In this document: positions 26,535 to 34,695 of the stretch, piece by piece | How positions within the stretch are numbered: position 1 is the first letter of the stretch | Layout: each line of letters starts with the position of its first letter | Assembly: GCA_025963965.1 (NCBI GenBank) | Contig: JAOPZS010000027.1 | Location: 1 to 56,360, forward strand | Direction: 5' to 3' | Length of the DNA stretch: 56,360 bases | Origin: Solirubrobacterales bacterium | Lineage (GTDB): Bacteria > Actinomycetota > Thermoleophilia > Solirubrobacterales > Solirubrobacteraceae | Translations under genes and position numbers: made by a program | The notes under the pieces: model-generated | The model's database searches: none | What the model was told of the DNA's origin: nothing | Seen by the model: only the letters and a program-made list of their open reading frames with translations

Positions 26535-26849
26535 ATGTCCGGCTGCGCGCACCTCGACACGATCACTGTCACCGAGCTGCCGCCCGAGGTGGACGGCTGC
26601 GAGGACTGCCTGCGCGACGGCGGCGTCTGGCTGCACCTGCGCATCTGCCTGGAGTGCGGGCACGTCGGCTGCTGCGACGACTCTCCCGGCAAACACGCCA
26701 GCGGCCATGCCCGAGCTGAGGACCATCCGCTGATCCGCTCGCTCGAGCCCGGCGAGACGTGGTCGTGGTGCTTCGTCGACGAGCTCGGCATGGTGATTCC
26801 GCAGATCACCGGCAGCACCCGGATACCACCGTCGCCGATGCTGAGCTGA
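26535..26849 (+). CDS. UBP-type zinc finger protein
   Basis: A 104-residue protein that is nearly all one ZnF-UBP domain. Ligand candidates follow the family order: C4 and H6, C22 and C25 (GCEDCLRDGG), C38 and C41 (ICLECGHVGCCDDS), C46/C47, then H54, H58 and H64 (SPGKHASGHARAEDHPLI). In eukaryotes this domain binds the free C-terminus of ubiquitin. Bacteria lack ubiquitin, so the ligand here is unknown. It is the first gene of a four-gene operon, with one gap of two bases to the next start. CATATT seven bases before the ATG is a possible -10 box. Confidence 0.87.
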   Translation: MSGCAHLDTITVTELPPEVDGCEDCLRDGGVWLHLRICLECGHVGCCDDSPGKHASGHARAEDHPLIRSLEPGETWSWCFVDELGMVIPQITGSTRIPPSPMLS

Positions 26850-26851
26850 CG

Positions 26852-28504
26852 ATGGCCGAACGGCGGCCCGCGATCCTCGCCGTCGATGACGAGCCGGCCG
26901 TCCTCGCTGCGGTCGCGCGGGACCTGCGCCGGCACTTCGGCGAGCGCTACCGCGTGCTGCGCGCCGGCTCCGGCGCGGACGGCCTCGATCTGCTCGGCGA
27001 GATGCGCACCCGCGGCGACTCCGTCGCGATGCTCGTCGCCGACCAGCGCATGCCCGGCATGGACGGCACCGACTACCTGCTCAAGGCCCGCGGGATCTAC
27101 CCGGAGGCCAAGCGTGTGCTGCTCACCGCATACGCCGACACAGCTGCCGCGATCGCGGCGATCAACGAGGTCTCACTCGACTACTACCTGCTGAAGCCGT
27201 GGGATCCGCCGGAGGAGCAGCTCTACCCGGTCGTCGAGGACCTGCTCACGACCTGGGAGGCCGGTGCCGCGCTCGAGTCGGGTGGCGTGCGCGTGATCGG
27301 CCATCGCTACTCCCGCGAGACTCACGAGCTTCGCGACTTCCTCGCTCGCAACCGTGTCCCGGCACGCTGGCTGGACATCGAGCGCGACGCCGAGGCGCGC
27401 GAACTGCTGAGCGCCGCCGGGGTCGGGGAGGATCGCCTGCCCGTGACGCTGCTCGAGGACGGAGCGGTGCTCCAGCGCCCAACCGTGCTGCAGCTGGCCG
27501 AGCGGCTCGGCGTCGCCGGGCAGCCGGCCGCCGATCACTACGACCTCGTGATCGTCGGCGGTGGACCCGCCGGCCTCGCCGCTGCCGTCTACGGCGCCTC
27601 CGAGGGGCTGCGCACGGTGCTCGTCGAGCGCGAGGCGCCCGGCGGTCAGGCCGGGCAGTCGAGCCGCATCGAGAACTACCTCGGCTTTCCCGCCGGGCTG
27701 TCCGGCTCGGATCTCGCGCGGCGGGCCACCGACCAGGCCCGGCGGCTCGGCGCCGAGCTGCTGAGCGTCAGCGACGCAGTCGCGCTGCGCGTCGAGGGCG
27801 CCGGGCGCTTCGTCGAGCTGACCGGCGGGGGAGAGCTGAGCGCGAACACGGTGCTCGTCGCCTCCGGAGTCTCCTACCGGATGATGGCCGCTCCCGGCTT
27901 CTCCGAGCTGACCGGCGCCGGCGTCTACTACGGCGCGGCCCTGACCGAGGCCCGCTCGTGCGCCGACCAGCACGTCGTCGTGATCGGCGGCGCCAACTCG
28001 GCCGGGCAGGCCGCCGTCTACTTCAGCGGCTACGCCAAGCGCGTCTCGATGCTCGTTCGCGGAGACTCGCTCGACAGGTCGATGTCGCACTACCTGATCG
28101 AGCAGATCGCGGCCCTGGAGAACGTCGAGGTGCGCACGGGCACCCAGGCGATCGCCGCCCACGGCGAGGACGGCCGGCTGAAGAGCCTCGAGATCCGCGA
28201 CGCCGAGGGCAACGTCGCTACCGAGGAGGCCGACGCGTGCTTCATCTTCATCGGCGCCGTGCCGCGCACCGACTGGCTCGACGGCGTCCTCGCGCGCGAT
28301 CAGGCCGGATTCATCCTCGCGGGCCCGGACGTGCGCGAGAACGGCTGGCCGCTGCCCCGTGAGCCCTACCCGCTCGAGACGAGCGTTCCGGGCGTGTTCG
28401 TCGCCGGAGACGTGCACTCGCGCTCGATCAAGCGCGTCGCGAGCGCCGTCGGCGAGGGATCGATGGCGGTGTCGCTGATCCACGAGTACCTGGCCAGCGC
28501 GTGA
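26852..28504 (+). CDS. Response regulator fused to glutaredoxin-like and thioredoxin-reductase-like domains
   Basis: The 550-residue protein has three parts. Residues 1-125 are a CheY-like receiver: acidic pair D12/D13, phosphoacceptor D64 in VADQRMPGMDG, T92 and K115 (YLLKPWD). Residues about 146-222 have a glutaredoxin-like outline with LPVTLLEDG at the cis-Pro position, but the CxxC is replaced by YSRE. Residues about 230-550 are a thioredoxin-reductase-like FAD/NAD(P)H fold: VIVGGGPAGLAAAVYG, GGQAGQSSRIENYLGFP, VVVIGGANSAGQAAVYFSG and GVFVAGDVHSRSIKRVASAV. The redox CxxC is missing here too (YYGAALTEA). Disulfide chemistry is therefore unlikely and flavin-based sensing or output is more plausible. 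It overlaps the kinase gene by four bases. Confidence 0.88.
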   Translation: MAERRPAILAVDDEPAVLAAVARDLRRHFGERYRVLRAGSGADGLDLLGEMRTRGDSVAMLVADQRMPGMDGTDYLLKARGIYPEAKRVLLTAYADTAAAIAAINEVSLDYYLLKPWDPPEEQLYPVVEDLLTTWEAGAALESGGVRVIGHRYSRETHELRDFLARNRVPARWLDIERDAEARELLSAAGVGEDRLPVTLLEDGAVLQRPTVLQLAERLGVAGQPAADHYDLVIVGGGPAGLAAAVYGASEGLRTVLVEREAPGGQAGQSSRIENYLGFPAGLSGSDLARRATDQARRLGAELLSVSDAVALRVEGAGRFVELTGGGELSANTVLVASGVSYRMMAAPGFSELTGAGVYYGAALTEARSCADQHVVVIGGANSAGQAAVYFSGYAKRVSMLVRGDSLDRSMSHYLIEQIAALENVEVRTGTQAIAAHGEDGRLKSLEIRDAEGNVATEEADACFIFIGAVPRTDWLDGVLARDQAGFILAGPDVRENGWPLPREPYPLETSVPGVFVAGDVHSRSIKRVASAVGEGSMAVSLIHEYLASA

Positions 28505-29904
28505 GCAACCCTACGATCGACGAGCTGCGCCCGATCGACCTGTTCGACGGCCTCGACGACGAGCACCTCGCCGAGTTCGCGGCCCGCGCCGAGTTGCGCG
28601 AGTACAAGGCGGGCGAGATGGTCGCCCGCGAGGGCGAGCGCGAGCCGGCCGTGTACCTGCTGCTCGACGGCATCGCCGAGGCTTTCCGGGACGTCAACGG
28701 GCGCCAGGAGCCCTCGGGCGAGCACGCCTCGCCGACCTGGATGGGAGCTATCGCGGCTCTGACCGGCTCGCCGCTGGGCGTCCAGATGCAGGCCAAGACC
28801 GACCTGCGCCTCGCGGCGATCGCGCCGGCGGACTTCCTGGACCTGGCCGTCGAGAACCGCTCGATCATGCAGCTCGTGCTCGCGCGCGTGCGCCCCGTCG
28901 TCGGGCGGATCACCGCGATCGAGCAGAACCGCGAGCGCCTCGAGTCGCTCGGGACGATGGCGGCGGGCCTCGCGCACGAGCTCAACAACCCGGCAGCCGC
29001 CGCCAAGCGCGCCTCCTCGGAGCTGGCCGAGGCGCTCGAGGTGCTCGGCTCCACGATCGGCCTGTTCGTCGAGTCCGGCGTCGAGCGCGGGGAGGCCGAG
29101 CAGCTCGTGGCGATACAGCGCCAGGTGCTGGCGGCCTGCAAGGCCCGCGCCTCGATCCCCCAGCTCGAGCTGGCCGACGCTGAGGACGCCCTGGGCGATG
29201 TGCTTGACGGCCTCGGCGTGAGCGACGGCTACAGGCTGGTCGAGCCGCTCGCACAGGCGGGCGTCGACGCCGAGCTGCTCGCCCGCGTCGCCGAGCTCGC
29301 CGGACCGGCGACGGAGGCAGCGGTCCGCTGGATCGCAGCCTCGCTGCTGGCGCGCGAGCTGGCCGCCGAGCTGGCCGAGTCGACGGAGCGGATGAGCAAG
29401 CTCGTCGGCGCCGTGAAGACCTATGCCTACATGGACCGCGGCGGCCTCGTCGAGGTCGACCTGCGCGAGGGGATCGACACGACGCTGACGATCCTCGGGC
29501 ACAAGCTCAAGCACACGACGATCGAGGTGCGCCGCGAGTTCGACCCGGAGCTGCCGCGCTTCCACGCCTACGGCGCCGAGCTCAACCAGGTGTGGACGAA
29601 CCTGCTCGACAACGCCATCGACGCGCTCGGCGACTCGGGGACGATCACGATCACGGCGCGCCGCGACGGCGACTGCGCCGAAGTCGAGATCCTCGACGAC
29701 GGCCCGGGCATCCCGGCCGATGTGCAGGAACGCATCTTCGACCCGTTCTTCACGACCAAGGAGGTCGGGCGCGGCACCGGTCTCGGCCTCGACACCGCGC
29801 GCCGGATCGTCGCCGATCGCCACGGCGGCAGTCTCGGCGTCGAGTCGGCGCCCGGGCGGACGCTGTTCCGCGTGCGCCTGCCGATCGACGTCCAGCCGGG
29901 GTGA
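28501..29904 (+). CDS. Sensor histidine kinase with N-terminal cNMP-binding domain
   Basis: The 467-residue soluble kinase has no membrane segment. Residues about 10-125 are a cyclic-nucleotide-binding-type beta barrel (LFDGLDDEHLAEFAARAEL, then YLLLDGIAEAFRD). The H-box is GLAHELNNPAAAAKRA with the phosphoacceptor near H159. A long helical insert follows (about 175-300). The catalytic HATPase domain has the N-box NLLDNAIDAL, DDGPGIP (G1), FDPFFTTK (F-box) and GRGTGLGL (G2). It is the obvious partner of the receiver fused to the flavoprotein just upstream. Start GTG overlaps that gene's stop by four bases, and its own stop overlaps the next start. Confidence 0.92.
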   Translation: MSNPTIDELRPIDLFDGLDDEHLAEFAARAELREYKAGEMVAREGEREPAVYLLLDGIAEAFRDVNGRQEPSGEHASPTWMGAIAALTGSPLGVQMQAKTDLRLAAIAPADFLDLAVENRSIMQLVLARVRPVVGRITAIEQNRERLESLGTMAAGLAHELNNPAAAAKRASSELAEALEVLGSTIGLFVESGVERGEAEQLVAIQRQVLAACKARASIPQLELADAEDALGDVLDGLGVSDGYRLVEPLAQAGVDAELLARVAELAGPATEAAVRWIAASLLARELAAELAESTERMSKLVGAVKTYAYMDRGGLVEVDLREGIDTTLTILGHKLKHTTIEVRREFDPELPRFHAYGAELNQVWTNLLDNAIDALGDSGTITITARRDGDCAEVEILDDGPGIPADVQERIFDPFFTTKEVGRGTGLGLDTARRIVADRHGGSLGVESAPGRTLFRVRLPIDVQPG

Positions 29905-30362
29905 GCGCCGGCGCCGGCGAGATCCGGGTGCTTGCCGTCGACGCCGCGCTCGGGCGCCCGCTTCGGATGGCCGTGCTGCGCCCGGAGGAGCCGGCCGACG
30001 GGCAGATGTACCCGCTCGAGGAGCACCCGGCGACGCTGCATTTCGCTGTGCTCGGCGAAGGGCAGGAGGTGCTGTCGGTGGGCAGCGTCATGCCCGAGGC
30101 CCACCCGCGTGATCCGCGCGAGCACGACTGGCGGGTCCGGGGGATGGCGACCCGCCCCGATCTGCGCGGGAGCGGGCTCGGCTCGAGGCTGCTCGAGGAG
30201 ATCGTGCGGGTCACGCGCGAGCGCCACGGTGCACGCCTGTGGTGCAACGCGCGCGCCGGCGCCCGCCAGTTCTACGAGCACGCCGGCTTCCGGATCGAAG
30301 GCGAGGAGTACGAGATCGCGGGAATCGGGCCGCACTTCCTGATGAGCAGGGCGCTCGACTGA
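29901..30362 (+). CDS. GNAT-family acetyltransferase, last gene of the signalling operon
   Basis: A 153-residue protein starting at a GTG that overlaps the kinase stop (GTGA). The N-terminal part has EHPATLHFAVLGEGQEVLSV; motif A is VRGMATRPDLRGSGLGSRLL with the acetyl-CoA pyrophosphate loop; FYEHAGFRIEGEEYEIAGIG is a usual C-terminal part. This order (DWRVRGMATRPDLRGSG) is common among small bacterial GNATs of unknown substrate. Tight coupling to the kinase suggests that it belongs to the same response. 42 bases separate it from cysK, which has its own -10 box. Confidence 0.86.
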   Translation: MSAGAGEIRVLAVDAALGRPLRMAVLRPEEPADGQMYPLEEHPATLHFAVLGEGQEVLSVGSVMPEAHPRDPREHDWRVRGMATRPDLRGSGLGSRLLEEIVRVTRERHGARLWCNARAGARQFYEHAGFRIEGEEYEIAGIGPHFLMSRALD

Positions 30363-30404: not shown

Positions 30405-31340
30405 ATGGCACGAATCCCGATCAACATTGCTGATCTTGTCGGGGAGACGCCGCTGGTGGAGCTGGGAACGCTGCTCGAGCAGGGGGCCGACGGAGCGCGC
30501 CTGTTCGCAAAGCTCGAGGCGTTCAACCCCGGCGGAAGCGTCAAGGATCGAATCGGCGTCGCGATGATCGAGGCGGCCGAGGCCGAAGGCCGCATCGAGC
30601 CCGGACGCACGACGATCGTCGAGGCCACCAGCGGCAACACCGGCATCGCGCTCGCCTTCGTGTGCGCCGCGAAGGGCTATGACCTGGTGCTGACGCTGCC
30701 GCAGGGCATGAGCCGCGAGCGCGAGAGCCTGCTGCGGCTCTACGGCGCGCGGGTCGACATCACCGAGTCACTTGGTGGGATGAGCGAGGCCGTTACAGCC
30801 GCTCAGGCGATGGCTCGCAGCGACGACGTGTTCCTGCCCGACCAGTTCTCCAATCCGGCCAATCCCGAGGCGCACCGGCGCACGACCGGACCGGAGATCG
30901 CCAGGGCGCTCGACGGCGACGTCGACGTGCTCGTCGCCGGCGTCGGCACGGGCGGCACGATCACGGGCGTCGGCGAGCACCTGCGCGAGCACTGCAACCC
31001 CAGCCTGAAGATCGTCGCCGTCGAGCCCGAGGGCTCTGCCGTGCTGTCCGGGGGGCGCCTCGGGCCGCACCGCATCCAGGGAATCGGCGCGGGCTTCGTT
31101 CCGCCGGTGCTCAACCGCGAGCTGATCGACGAGGTGATCGCCGTCTCAGACGACGACGCGATCCACGCCGCGTGGCGCTGCGCGCGTGTCGCCGGGCTGC
31201 TCGCCGGGATCTCAGGCGGCGCCGCGCTGCATGCCGCGCTGGAGATCGCCGCACGCCCGGAGTCGGCCGGAGCCCGCATCGTCGTCGTGATGCCCGACTC
31301 GGGCGAGCGTTACGTCTCGCAGCCGTTCTTCGCACCGTAG
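30405..31340 (+). CDS. cysK: Cysteine synthase A
   Basis: CysK makes cysteine from O-acetylserine and sulfide. The 311-residue PLP enzyme shows the N-terminal IADLVGETPLVEL, the Schiff-base lysine near residue 47 in FNPGGSVKDRIG, the substrate loop EATSGNTGIAL, the phosphate-binding GVGTGGTITGVGEHL and the C-terminal GISGGAALHAAL. TATTGT at 30393-30398 lies six bases before the ATG, so a leaderless mRNA is likely. cysE follows 78 bases downstream, beyond a hairpin and with its own promoter. CysE and CysK form the cysteine synthase complex in other bacteria. Confidence 0.96.
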   Translation: MARIPINIADLVGETPLVELGTLLEQGADGARLFAKLEAFNPGGSVKDRIGVAMIEAAEAEGRIEPGRTTIVEATSGNTGIALAFVCAAKGYDLVLTLPQGMSRERESLLRLYGARVDITESLGGMSEAVTAAQAMARSDDVFLPDQFSNPANPEAHRRTTGPEIARALDGDVDVLVAGVGTGGTITGVGEHLREHCNPSLKIVAVEPEGSAVLSGGRLGPHRIQGIGAGFVPPVLNRELIDEVIAVSDDDAIHAAWRCARVAGLLAGISGGAALHAALEIAARPESAGARIVVVMPDSGERYVSQPFFAP

Positions 31341-31359
31341 GCACCGCAGGCGGGCCGCG

Positions 31360-31373
31360 GGCCGTGCACGGCC
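31360..31373 (+). terminator. Hairpin between cysK and cysE
   Basis: GGCCGTGCACGGCC at 31360-31373 is a perfect 14-base palindrome, giving a five-bp stem with a TGCA loop that can extend with one bulged base. It lies 20 bases after the cysK stop. No T-run follows, so a terminator role is tentative. Confidence 0.35.
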
Positions 31374-31384
31374 GCGAGCATCGG

Positions 31385-31412
31385 TTGCGCACGCAAGGAT
31401 CCCCGCTACGCT
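31385..31412 (+). promoter_or_regulatory. cysE promoter with palindrome on the -35
   Basis: TTGCGC (31385-31390) and TACGCT (31407-31412) are 16 bases apart and the ATG is six bases further on. The -35 is the left half of TTGCG-CA-CGCAA (31385-31396), a small inverted repeat that could be an operator. Confidence 0.5.
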
Positions 31413-31418
31413 CTTGCC

Positions 31419-32156
31419 ATGGCCGGTTTCAGCGCCTTCGCAAGGGTGGCCAGTGAGGTCAGGCGCGACGTGGTCGCGGCACGCGACCGCGATCCGGCCT
31501 CGAGCGGCGTTTCCACCGCGGAGATCATCGCCACCTGGCCCGGCATCCACGCGCTGCTCGCCTATCGAGTCGCTCACGCGATGCACGTCTCCGGCGTGCC
31601 GCTGCTGCCCCGCCTGATCTCGATGCTGGCACGCATGGTCAGCGGGATCGAGATCCATCCCGCAGCGATCATCGGGCGCGGCCTGTTCATCGACCACGGC
31701 AGCGGCGTCGTGGTCGGCGAGACCGCAGAGGTCGGCGACAACGTCACCCTCTACCAGGGCGTCACGCTCGGCGGCACCGGATTCCAGACGGGCAAGCGCC
31801 ACCCGACCGTCCAGGACAACGTGACGATCGGCTCCGGCGCGAAGCTGCTCGGGCCGATCACGATCGGTCACGGCGCGAAGGTCGGCGCCAACAGCGTCGT
31901 GATCACCGACGTGCCACCGAACTCGACGGTCGTCGGCAACCCCGGGCATCCGGTGCGAGTCGACGGCCGCCGTCCCGAGGGTCCCGACGTCGACTGGATC
32001 CACCTGCCCGACCCGATCGCCGAGGCGATCCAGGCACTCTCCGGGCGCATAGCGACGCTCGAACGGATGGTCGCCGAGCTCTCCGACGAGCCACAGCCGG
32101 TCGCCGAGGTGCGCCCGCTGCGCACCGTTCGCGGGCCGAACCCGGCCGGCGGTTAG
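31419..32156 (+). CDS. cysE: Serine O-acetyltransferase
   Basis: CysE acetylates serine with acetyl-CoA to give the CysK substrate and is usually feedback-inhibited by cysteine. The 245-residue protein has the N-terminal helical part (TWPGIHALLAYRVAHAMHV), then a left-handed beta helix of hexapeptide repeats: IEIHPAAIIGRGLFIDHGSG, VVVGETAEVGDNVTLYQGVT, and KRHPTVQDNVTIGSGAKLLG. The catalytic His is in IDHG. About 60 residues follow the helix and include a probable coiled coil (IAEAIQALSGRIATLERMVA), longer than in the short-form enzymes. It lies just downstream of cysK. Confidence 0.95.
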   Translation: MAGFSAFARVASEVRRDVVAARDRDPASSGVSTAEIIATWPGIHALLAYRVAHAMHVSGVPLLPRLISMLARMVSGIEIHPAAIIGRGLFIDHGSGVVVGETAEVGDNVTLYQGVTLGGTGFQTGKRHPTVQDNVTIGSGAKLLGPITIGHGAKVGANSVVITDVPPNSTVVGNPGHPVRVDGRRPEGPDVDWIHLPDPIAEAIQALSGRIATLERMVAELSDEPQPVAEVRPLRTVRGPNPAGG

Positions 32157-32170
32157 GGTCGCTTCGTCCG

Positions 32171-32215
32171 TCAGCTGATCACGTTGTGCGCTTCGCGCAG
32201 GCCGTGATCAGTTGA
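32171..32215 (+). repeat. Nested palindrome between cysE and pcrA
   Basis: TCAGCTGATCACG (32171-32183) pairs with CGTGATCAGTTGA (32203-32215): 13 pairs with one G-U. The loop holds a second hairpin, TGCGC-TTC-GCGCA at 32187-32199. There is no T-run. The plan and the TTC inner loop match the element at 8265-8316. Confidence 0.72.
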
Positions 32216-32322
32216 AGGACTTCGCTCTGCCAAGGATCAGCCCCCGCGGGAGTCGCGGGGAGTCCCGGCGCGCATCACCTGGCCTCGCTCAGCACTTCCG
32301 CAGCCGCATCTATGCTCAGTGG

Positions 32323-34695
32323 GTGGCCGCGACCAACCCTCATGCAGCGCATCTCCAGGAGCTGCTGGAGGACCTCAACGAGCCCCAGCGCGAGGCTGTC
32401 ACGCATGGCGAGGGGCCGCTGCTGATCCTCGCCGGCGCCGGCAGCGGCAAGACCCGCGTGCTCGCCCATCGCATCGCGTTCCTGATCTACACCGACCAGG
32501 CCCAGGCCGGCGAGATCCTCGCGATCACCTTCACCAACAAGGCCGCCAGCGAGATGCGCGAGCGTGTGGAACGGCTGCTCGGCCACGCGACGCGCGGCAT
32601 GTGGCTGATGACATTCCACTCGGCCTGTGCGCGGATCCTGCGCGCCGAGGCCGCCCGGCTCGGCTACACGCGCCAGTTCACGATCTACGACCAGGCCGAC
32701 TCGCGGCGGCTGGCCAAGCGCTCGGCCGACGCCGTGGGGGTCGATCCCAAGCGCTACACGCCGGCCGCCGTGCTGAACCAGATCTCGGCCGCCAAGAACA
32801 AGCTGATCGACGCCGACTCCTACCGCCAGGCGGCCGGCTCGCCGTTCGAGGAGATGATCGCCGAGGTCTACGACATCTACGAGCGCGACCTGGTGCGGAT
32901 GAACGCGATGGACTTCGACGACCTGCTGTTCCGCACCGTCAACCTGCTCGAGCTCTTCGACGAGGTGCGCGAGCGCTACAGCGACACGTTCCGGCACGTG
33001 CTCGTCGACGAGTACCAGGACACCAACCACGCCCAGTACCGCCTGCTGCAGCTCCTCGTCGGAGGCGGCCCGCCGCCGAGACGAGGCGGCGAGCGGACGG
33101 GCGACCGGCCCTCCTACGCCGGGCCGGTCGGCCACAGGAACCTCGCGGTCGTCGGCGACGACGCCCAGTCGATCTACGGCTTTCGCCAGGCCGACATCCG
33201 CAACATCCTCGACTTCCAGGATGACTTCCCCGACGCGCGCGTCGTCAAGCTCGAGCAGAACTACCGCTCGACCGAGACGATCCTGGCGGCCGCCAACGCG
33301 GTGATCGCGAACAATCGCGGCCAGATCGCCAAGCGCCTGTGGAGCGAGCTCGGGCAGGGCGAGCAGATCGAGCTGCGGGCGATGAGCGACGAGCATGCCG
33401 AGGCGCGCTACGTCGTCGGTGAGATCCAGCGACTCCTCGACGAGGGCGCATCGCGCTCGGAGATCGCTGTGCTCTACCGGACCAATGCGATGTCGCGCGT
33501 GATCGAGGACACCCTCGTGCGAAATGAGATCGCATACCAGGTGATCGGCGGCACGAAGTTCTACGAGCGCGCCGAGGTCAAGGACGTGATCGCCTACCTG
33601 TCGCTGCTCGCGAACCCGTATGACGTCGTCAGCTTCACGCGCGTGGCGAACTCGCCGCGGCGCGGGATCGGGCAGACCTCCCTGGCCCGGATCACGAACC
33701 ATGCCGTCGCGACAGACGTCTCGGTGTGGGAGGCCGCCGCCTCGCCCCAGCAGGTGCCGGGGCTCGGCGCGGCGGCCGTCAAGGCGCTCGGTCGCTTCAT
33801 GTCGACGATGGCCGAGCTGCGGGCGATGACAGGTGCCGAGCCGCTCGGCGGCGAAGGCGACACGGCGCCCGATGAGCTCCCCGGCGTGGCCCCGGGCGCG
33901 GCGCGGCGCGCGGCGGCACCGATCGCCGAGCTGCTCGAAGCGGTGCTCGCGCAGAGCGGATACATCGAGGCGCTGGAAGCGGAGAGATCGATCGAGGCGC
34001 AGGGACGCATCGAGAACCTCGAGCAGCTCGTCGAGGTCGGGCGCGAGTTCGACGGCGGCGCGGCCGGCGGCGACGGCACGCTCGAGCGTTTCCTGCAGGA
34101 GGTCGCGCTCGTCGCCGACGCGGACACGCGCAGCGACGAGGCCGGACTCGTGACGCTGATGACCCTCCACAACGCCAAGGGTCTCGAGTACCCGACGGTT
34201 TTCATCACCGGCTGCGAGGACGGCGTGTTCCCGCACTCCCGAGCGATCGACGAGGGCGGCCTCGAGGAGGAGCGCCGCCTGTTCTACGTCGGCGTCACGC
34301 GAGCGATGCGCCGCCTGTATCTCACCTACGCCCGACGCCGAGCCGTGTTCGGCGCCCAGAGCTACGGGATGCCGAGCCGCTTCTTGACCGAGATCCCCGG
34401 GGAGCTGCTCGACGAGGGCGCCTCCGGCGGCTTCCGCCCGGGGGCGACGCTGACGCCCTCGCTCGCCCGCGCCGGCGCGACCGTCTGGGGCGAGACCGCC
34501 GGCGCGCGCGCCGGAGCCGCCCGCACGCAGCCGGCGGGCCAGTCCTTCCGGCTCGGCGAGGACGTCGTCCACGCGGCCTTCGGCGACGGAGTCGTGACGG
34601 GAGTCGAGGCGGACGGGGTGATCGTCGTGCGCTTCGCCGGCGACGGCTCCGAACGCAAGCTGATGGCCGAGTACGCCCCCGTCACACGACGCTGA
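32323..34695 (+). CDS. pcrA: UvrD/PcrA-type ATP-dependent DNA helicase
   Basis: A superfamily 1A helicase of 790 residues acting in nucleotide excision repair and replication restart. Motifs in order: Q-motif LNEPQREAV, Walker [10 protein letters not shown], Ia [79 protein letters not shown] Gly/Pro/Arg-rich loop of about 25 residues sits between motifs II and III. The C-terminus has the Tudor-like RNA polymerase-contact fold ([18 protein letters not shown]). I take the GTG at 32323, because TATGCT (32311-32316) is six bases upstream; an ATG-like start at 32212 would overlap the palindrome region. Confidence 0.93.

Follow-up and report, generated by a model that had tools for sequence, protein, structure and literature searches.

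The window, as we call the whole stretch analysed, comprises 56,360 nucleotides of contig JAOPZS010000027.1 (assembly GCA_025963965.1) from a Solirubrobacterales bacterium of the phylum Actinomycetota. It carries an operon of four genes, which encode a UBP-type zinc finger protein, a fusion of receiver, glutaredoxin (Grx)-like and thioredoxin reductase (TrxR)-like domains, a histidine kinase with a cyclic nucleotide-binding (cNMP) fold, and a GNAT acetyltransferase. On balance we consider it probable, judging from sequence comparison, that the first three genes form a conserved three-part module, in which a phosphorelay controls a dithiol-free NAD(P)H flavoprotein that acts through a bacterial UBP adaptor. 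The four open reading frames (ORFs) were found again on the plus strand when the window was read. The stop codon of the UBP gene (26847-26849) is separated from the ATG of the fusion (26852) by a gap of 2 bases, and GTGA overlaps of 4 bases each join fusion to kinase (28501-28504) and kinase to acetyltransferase (29901-29904). Because of this gap and the two overlaps the four frames are read as one unit, in agreement with the single transcription unit proposed by the first-pass annotation. The features are as follows.

26535..26849, + strand: UBP-type zinc finger protein P0001, 104 amino acids (Pfam zf-UBP; closest solved chain 2ida; GCCD signature)
26852..28504, + strand: receiver - Grx-like - TrxR-like fusion P0002 (Pfam Response_reg and Pyr_redox_2; AlphaFold model)
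26873..27211, + strand: receiver domain, P0002 residues 10-122 (Pfam)
27041..27043, + strand: receiver phospho-acceptor Asp, D66 of P0002 as printed, which is D64 counted from the ATG (alignment)
27284..27523, + strand: Grx-like domain without CxxC (profile match to mycoredoxin 2lqo; secondary structure of the model)
27311..27322, + strand: SRET at the Grx CPDC place (aligned with relatives L141-L145)
27533..28501, + strand: TrxR-like FAD/NAD(P)H domain
27932..27943, + strand: GAAL at the TrxR CATC place (aligned with L141-L145)
28501..29904, + strand: cNMP-fold histidine kinase P0003, 467 amino acids (Pfam cNMP_binding and HATPase_c; model)
28975..28977, + strand: kinase phospho-acceptor His159, within HELNNP (kept in 93 of 94 kinases)
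29901..30362, + strand: GNAT acetyltransferase, in the same unit here, outside the conserved module (Pfam Acetyltransf_1)

The flavoprotein fusion and its missing dithiols

Within a single protein, P0002 matches the Pfam families Response_reg (49.8 bits, cut-off 30.2) and Pyr_redox_2 (118.4 bits, cut-off 26.1). The acidic pair of the receiver, D66, T94 and K117 are conserved in 89-92 of 99 alignment rows; at the phospho-acceptor place 89 rows have Asp, five a gap and five another residue. The segment between receiver and flavin domain, to which Pfam assigned no name, can be recognised as a degenerate glutaredoxin. A profile made from it matches the mycoredoxin Rv3198.1 (2lqo, E 4e-6), and in the AlphaFold model of P0002 (mean pLDDT 87.4) its strands and helices follow the order beta-alpha-beta-alpha-beta-beta-alpha, which fits glutaredoxin, so that the structure prediction suggested as a check by the first-pass annotation agrees with a degenerate Grx fold. 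In place of the active-site CxxC or CxxS of glutaredoxins and mycoredoxins the window has SRET.

The cysteines were followed through a set of 140 distinct domains (118 receiver-type, 15 cNMP-type, two with neither domain and five CxxC-bearing relatives), which excludes the window's own copies, identical domains and those shorter than 330 residues. The fusion branch of this set, with P0002 put back, gave an alignment of 136 distinct members. No member, that of the window included, has Cys at either position of the TrxR CATC place, and at the Grx CxxC place the first Cys occurs in 0/136 and the second in three (L092, L165 and L167). A stray C..C is present in three members, away from the active-site places. 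The five fused Grx-TrxR relatives L141-L145 all keep both WCxDC and CATC; aligned with them, SRET of the window falls on CPDC and GAAL on CATC. At the two Grx Cys places there is Ser in 86 and Ser or Thr in 90 of 99 rows, the site being mostly SxxS. It had been claimed from the window that both CxxC pairs are lost, with the proviso that a decayed copy among homologous fusions that keep them would speak against a dedicated system; the branch members lack both pairs as well.

The TrxR fold is kept, and so, as claimed earlier, are the TrxR-type loops for FAD (GGGPAG) and NAD(P)H (GGxNSA). GGQAGxSSRIENYLGFP, NSAGQA and KRVASAVGEG are near-invariant motifs of the branch, Cys372 is present in 91 of 99 rows, and more than 60 columns are invariant among 73 sequences. 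These alignments show the absence of both CxxC pairs to be a constant feature of the branch rather than decay, and decay into a pseudogene was rejected on the invariant columns and the branch-wide loss. With both dithiols gone, the flavoprotein would not act as a reductase of thioredoxin or glutaredoxin. Its score against TIGR01292 (thioredoxin reductase) is 200.7 bits, below the NCBIfam equivalog cut-off of 343.45, whereas the true TrxR of the same genome reaches 370.8 bits. The model lies 1.9 Å from the Lactococcus TrxR structure 5mh4, titled FR (flavin-reducing), and 8.0 Å from 5mjk, whose title gives the form as FO. Nine more structures among the first ten rows fit at 1.7-2.4 Å, whatever their shape. 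As the swing that serves disulfide reduction would no longer be needed, the flavoprotein could stay in the flavin-reducing form, and the model suggests that it is probably held in that shape.

Regarding known systems, AhpF also has a Trx/Grx-fold domain ahead of a TrxR-like FAD/NAD(P)H domain, and AhpF 4o5q is the first Foldseek row for the fusion model, with a poor overall superposition. However, the fusion scores 161.1 against TIGR03140, an NCBIfam equivalog with a cut-off of 502.9, and only its TrxR part is covered. AhpF retains its redox cysteines, whereas the window fusion is without both pairs and has an added receiver. In L141-L145 Grx and TrxR follow each other as in the fusion (identity for L141 is 35% in 406 aligned columns), but these proteins differ in their intact CxxC pairs, in having a Pfam receiver or cNMP domain in none of the three scanned, and in the absence of UBP from the 4-4.5 kb fetched around each. 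These intact fusions belong to the same phylum as the window and are possibly the ancestral form. The RefSeq proteins named 'cyclic nucleotide-binding domain-containing thioredoxin-disulfide reductase' share the dithiol-free Grx-TrxR part, and two of four have a UBP neighbour, but a cNMP domain stands in the receiver's stead; the activity implied by their name is, from the sequences, unlikely given the missing cysteines.

It is unlikely that P0002 belongs to the ordinary TrxR-like ferredoxin/flavodoxin-NAD(P)+ reductase kind, switched by its receiver, with the UBP finger as mere stress-related company. Such reductases have no Grx or receiver part, and the fusion is nearer in sequence to true TrxR and to the CxxC-bearing Grx-TrxR proteins (the 200.7 bits and 35% identity given above); the kept Grx-like domain and the kinase-UBP fusions described below would also be left unexplained.

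Gene company and the UBP partner

We compared 80 full-fusion loci, the best 80 from a scan of named bacterial genomes. The receiver is present in all of them, the kinase lies directly downstream in 64 and anywhere in the locus in 73, and a UBP gene is found within 31; in the 68 loci that extend 3 kb or more to each side, the kinase is adjacent in 53 and in the locus in 62, and UBP in 27. Five phyla are represented (Actinomycetota, Cyanobacteriota, Chloroflexota, Acidobacteriota and Bacteroidota), the last three by one assembled metagenome each, with a Bacteroidota locus that has no adjacent kinase. Plasmids extend the range to Deinococcota and Pseudomonadota, both with an adjacent kinase. The commonest three-gene order is fusion-kinase-UBP, and UBP comes first, as in the window, in L096, L124 and L146; the three genes overlap in a Streptomyces plasmid record, where they bear general names only. 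That kinase and fusion are adjacent in 64 of 80 loci is not a product of chance, and the same gene set in distant bacteria looks like a real redox signalling module. The objection that these genes might rarely occur together elsewhere, raised with the first proposal, is not borne out, since they are often found together. Only four of 41 genomes of the relatives set, the own genome included, contain a close copy of the fusion, so the module is accessory. Among the 28 largest clusters of 4467 neighbouring ORFs from 130 loci, no fourth recurrent neighbour appeared besides a chaperone group; the other large clusters were mostly broad families, antisense frames and near-identical Streptomyces blocks, the families being judged by eye. 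No paper on the gene set was found among the literature matches listed.

The acetyltransferase (Pfam GNAT, 44.4 bits, cut-off 20.7) behaves differently. A phmmer search through the ORFs of 98 loci matched no homologue of it at E<=1e-3, and homologues occur in six of the 41 genomes, own included, of which the own genome alone has both it and the fusion. In a Deinococcus record a gene annotated as GNAT lies some 2 kb upstream of the fusion; it has no BLASTP match to the window acetyltransferase. The latter was therefore rejected as a member or output of the module, and the acetylation output once proposed is not supported. This gene does resemble a chance neighbour and, together with the presence of the fusion in only 4/41 genomes, might suggest that the operon is a decaying chance cluster of unrelated genes. 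That view is scarcely credible: the window frames contain no stop, and the invariant columns and the gene pair kept across phyla refute chance or decay for the first three genes. Downstream of the operon (window 30405-34695) lie a pyridoxal-phosphate enzyme, presumably of the cysteine synthase type, a hexapeptide transferase, which we take to be of the serine acetyltransferase type, and a UvrD-type helicase.

A sister branch has a cNMP domain in place of the receiver on the same flavoprotein. UBP lies at most 2.5 kb away in 11 of 15 cNMP-type domains, 34 of 118 receiver-type, one of two with neither and none of five CxxC relatives; the figure of 34 is a lower bound, given the short loci behind many receiver-type rows. 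In the tree, a quick search with midpoint root that leaves 47 of 137 inner branches open, the CxxC-bearing group stands apart (SH-aLRT 100) and four type changes are needed. In the own genome, one cNMP paralogue follows downstream of grpE-dnaJ-clpB, from which a PucR-type gene separates it; a second UBP gene faces this paralogue from the other strand. On plasmids of two Rhodococcus, a Nocardia and a Streptomyces the order is grpE, dnaJ type, cbpM and clpB, followed by trxA-UBP-cNMP-flavoprotein, with dnaK also within the stretch in three of the four. On a Paraburkholderia dioscoreae plasmid (L169:3719-8152) the genes for an unfused flavoprotein and UBP face that of a Clp ATPase, with Hsp20, HdeD and PsiE nearby. 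Rhizobium and Agrobacterium plasmids have UBP and then the cNMP-flavoprotein, some beside a kinase and response regulators, and some other cNMP or unfused copies have neither UBP nor chaperone neighbours. The Paraburkholderia genes (Clp ATPase, Hsp20, HdeD, PsiE) resemble those of the stress-tolerance island tLST, whose review, in the passages covered, names thioredoxin and not the flavoprotein-UBP pair (PMC8290217). No tLST-like genes were noted beside the window's operon.

The UBP finger also belongs to the set, as a genuine third partner of kinase and flavoprotein. In 198 genomes of the window's phylum, with at most seven candidates scored per genome, 44 have the flavoprotein, 45 have UBP and 31 both; UBP is thus present in 31 of 44 flavoprotein genomes versus 14 of 154 others (Fisher p 2e-15, ignoring shared ancestry; 5e-15 minus the window's genome). 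Five of the 44 hold only CxxC-bearing relatives, none of them with UBP, and without these five the proportions are 31/39 versus 14/159 (p 3e-18). Among 117 cyanobacterial genomes eight have the flavoprotein, five UBP and four both; minus the seed genome, UBP occurs in 3/7 with the flavoprotein versus 1/109 without (p 5e-4). Of 61 UBPs, 15 have a flavoprotein gene no more than 10 kb away. Of the 49 loci without UBP, 26 genomes were tested and 20 hold UBP elsewhere. In L091 and L160, cNMP domain, kinase and a C-terminal UBP are joined in one frame.

P0001 matches Pfam zf-UBP with 51.1 bits (gathering cut-off 22.7), and the solved chain closest to it is 2ida (E 6.9e-28), which we take to be RPA1320 of Rhodopseudomonas; the two share GCCD, around which the bacterial UBP signature is built. 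Bacterial zf-UBP mini-proteins are already in print (PMC2602986), and the passages covered of PMC11354881 have nothing on UBP. The zf-UBP family is common to these and eukaryotic UBP fingers, but USP16 has GCGR where bacterial proteins have GCCD or similar. The first-pass annotation described the finger as of a ubiquitin-tail-binding type and suggested modelling it with the C-terminal tails of small proteins, Pup included. That it binds Pup or a ubiquitin-like protein of bacteria by the C-terminal tail is very unlikely, even though the UBP finger fold and an aromatic residue near the end, mostly kept, would suit it. The HDAC6 mutant R1155A-Y1156A lost RLRGG tail binding, according to PMC12000391. 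GCGR of USP16 stands at the presumed tail-holding place, which we equate with HDAC6 R1155. Among 69 distinct UBPs one (L193) is a fragment without the Arg place; in the 68 readable ones this place holds Asp in 66, Asn in one, Glu in one and Arg in none, and is preceded by Cys where USP16 has Gly. With Asp for the tail-holding Arg in 66 of 68, and Arg replaced in all, ubiquitin-tail binding is unlikely. Pup was rejected as the ligand: it had no match in the own draft genome (89.7% complete), and the cassette also occurs in Cyanobacteria and Deinococcus, which to our knowledge are not known for Pup. At L151:5207-7120 a single frame encodes a Na+/H+ exchanger with a C-terminal UBP finger, a fusion that makes the bacterial UBP look like a portable domain.

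The kinase and its input

P0003 matches cNMP_binding (46.1 bits, cut-off 27.5) and HATPase_c (91.4 bits, cut-off 26.4), with HisKA at 20.1 bits under its cut-off of 26.9. H159 is conserved in 93 of 94 aligned kinases, and the residues of a two-component pair are in place, namely the kinase His and ATP-binding boxes and the receiver Asp with Lys and Thr. The earlier pairing of H159 with D64 is supported as likely, and the adjacency of the two genes suggests that phosphate may pass between them. Kinase structures are among the matches listed by Foldseek for the kinase model (mean pLDDT 92.9). The dimer domain contains a helical insert, at about residues 196-252, between two long helices and with near-invariant residues.

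Cyclic-nucleotide-binding regulators have a Glu and an Arg in the phosphate-binding cassette; the window kinase has Ala and Gln about these places. A first, stricter pattern, which required an aromatic residue first, matched 0/94 kinases, and a looser one matched five, of which one (L124) was judged convincing; Glu is present at one cassette place in 31 of 94. As Glu and Arg are missing here and in most relatives, the ligand is probably not cAMP, and classical cNMP sensing is doubtful. Of the cNMP-type input domain proposed at first, the family assignment stands. Two or three cNMP-kinase frames are present in seven of the 73 kinase-bearing loci (L044, L046, L054, L062, L079, L090 and L091, the count for L091 including short frames, possibly pieces), which suggests several inputs converging on one output.

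An improbable alternative places the flavoprotein at the start of the pathway, as a sensor whose NAD(P)H/FAD state alters receiver phosphorylation, with the kinase or its fused UBP as output. The C-terminal UBP of the kinases in L091 and L160, which may give them a binding output of their own, and the seven loci with several kinase frames would fit such an arrangement; the cNMP-flavoproteins that have UBP and no such kinase adjoining suggest, on the contrary, that flavoprotein and UBP suffice.

Proposed mechanism and significance

The architecture, its conservation, the dithiol loss, the gene company and the kinase-UBP fusions can be read in the sequences themselves; from them we infer phosphotransfer, cofactor binding, the direction of the signal and UBP binding. 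In the phosphorelay-controlled module that we favour, the kinase with its cNMP-fold input would autophosphorylate on His159 and pass the phosphate to the receiver of the Grx-TrxR flavoprotein. The flavoprotein would bind FAD and NAD(P)H, probably staying in its flavin-reducing shape, and would either give electrons to a non-disulfide acceptor or report the NAD(P)H/flavin state. The UBP finger would be its partner or adaptor, through a bacterial pocket in which Cys-Asp replaces the ubiquitin-binding Gly-Arg. Since paralogues have a cNMP domain fused onto the same flavoprotein, the flavoprotein-UBP pair appears as the output and the N-terminal part as the input. By analogy with the chaperone neighbourhoods, a role of the module in oxidative or protein-folding stress is probable. 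A bolder version, in our view quite unlikely, has electrons passing from NAD(P)H via the kinase-gated flavoprotein to the Cys-Asp site of UBP, perhaps through Cys372, and so switching an adaptor, which in turn would adjust chaperones, ion exchangers and the kinase; if true, it would be a bacterial redox use of the ubiquitin-tail-binding fold.

Several observations weigh against the favoured module. The 80 loci are a selection of best matches, and 16 of them are without a directly adjacent kinase. UBP is absent in six of 26 tested receiver-type genomes and unlinked in many, 14 of 45 UBP genomes have no flavoprotein, the third paralogue of the own genome (L114) has no UBP in the fetched stretch, UBP is fused to the exchanger in L151, and the Fisher values ignore shared ancestry. 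The flavin-reducing shape of the model may be an AlphaFold bias. The ClpB-type cluster is present in seven of 130 loci, all cNMP-type or unfused and several near-duplicates; as no receiver-type locus is among them, a stress role of the window's operon is drawn by analogy only.

In public records, proteins of the branch go by the names thioredoxin-disulfide reductase or FAD-dependent oxidoreductase, and the dithiol for the first of these reactions is absent. The branch is marked by fixed motifs not shared with other groups, by control domains of two kinds and by a zinc-finger partner known chiefly from the ubiquitin biology of eukaryotes. If its function were defined, this labelling could be corrected and the work of bacterial UBP fingers without ubiquitin explained; two-component signalling would also be linked, in a testable way, with NAD(P)H state and with protein-folding stress.

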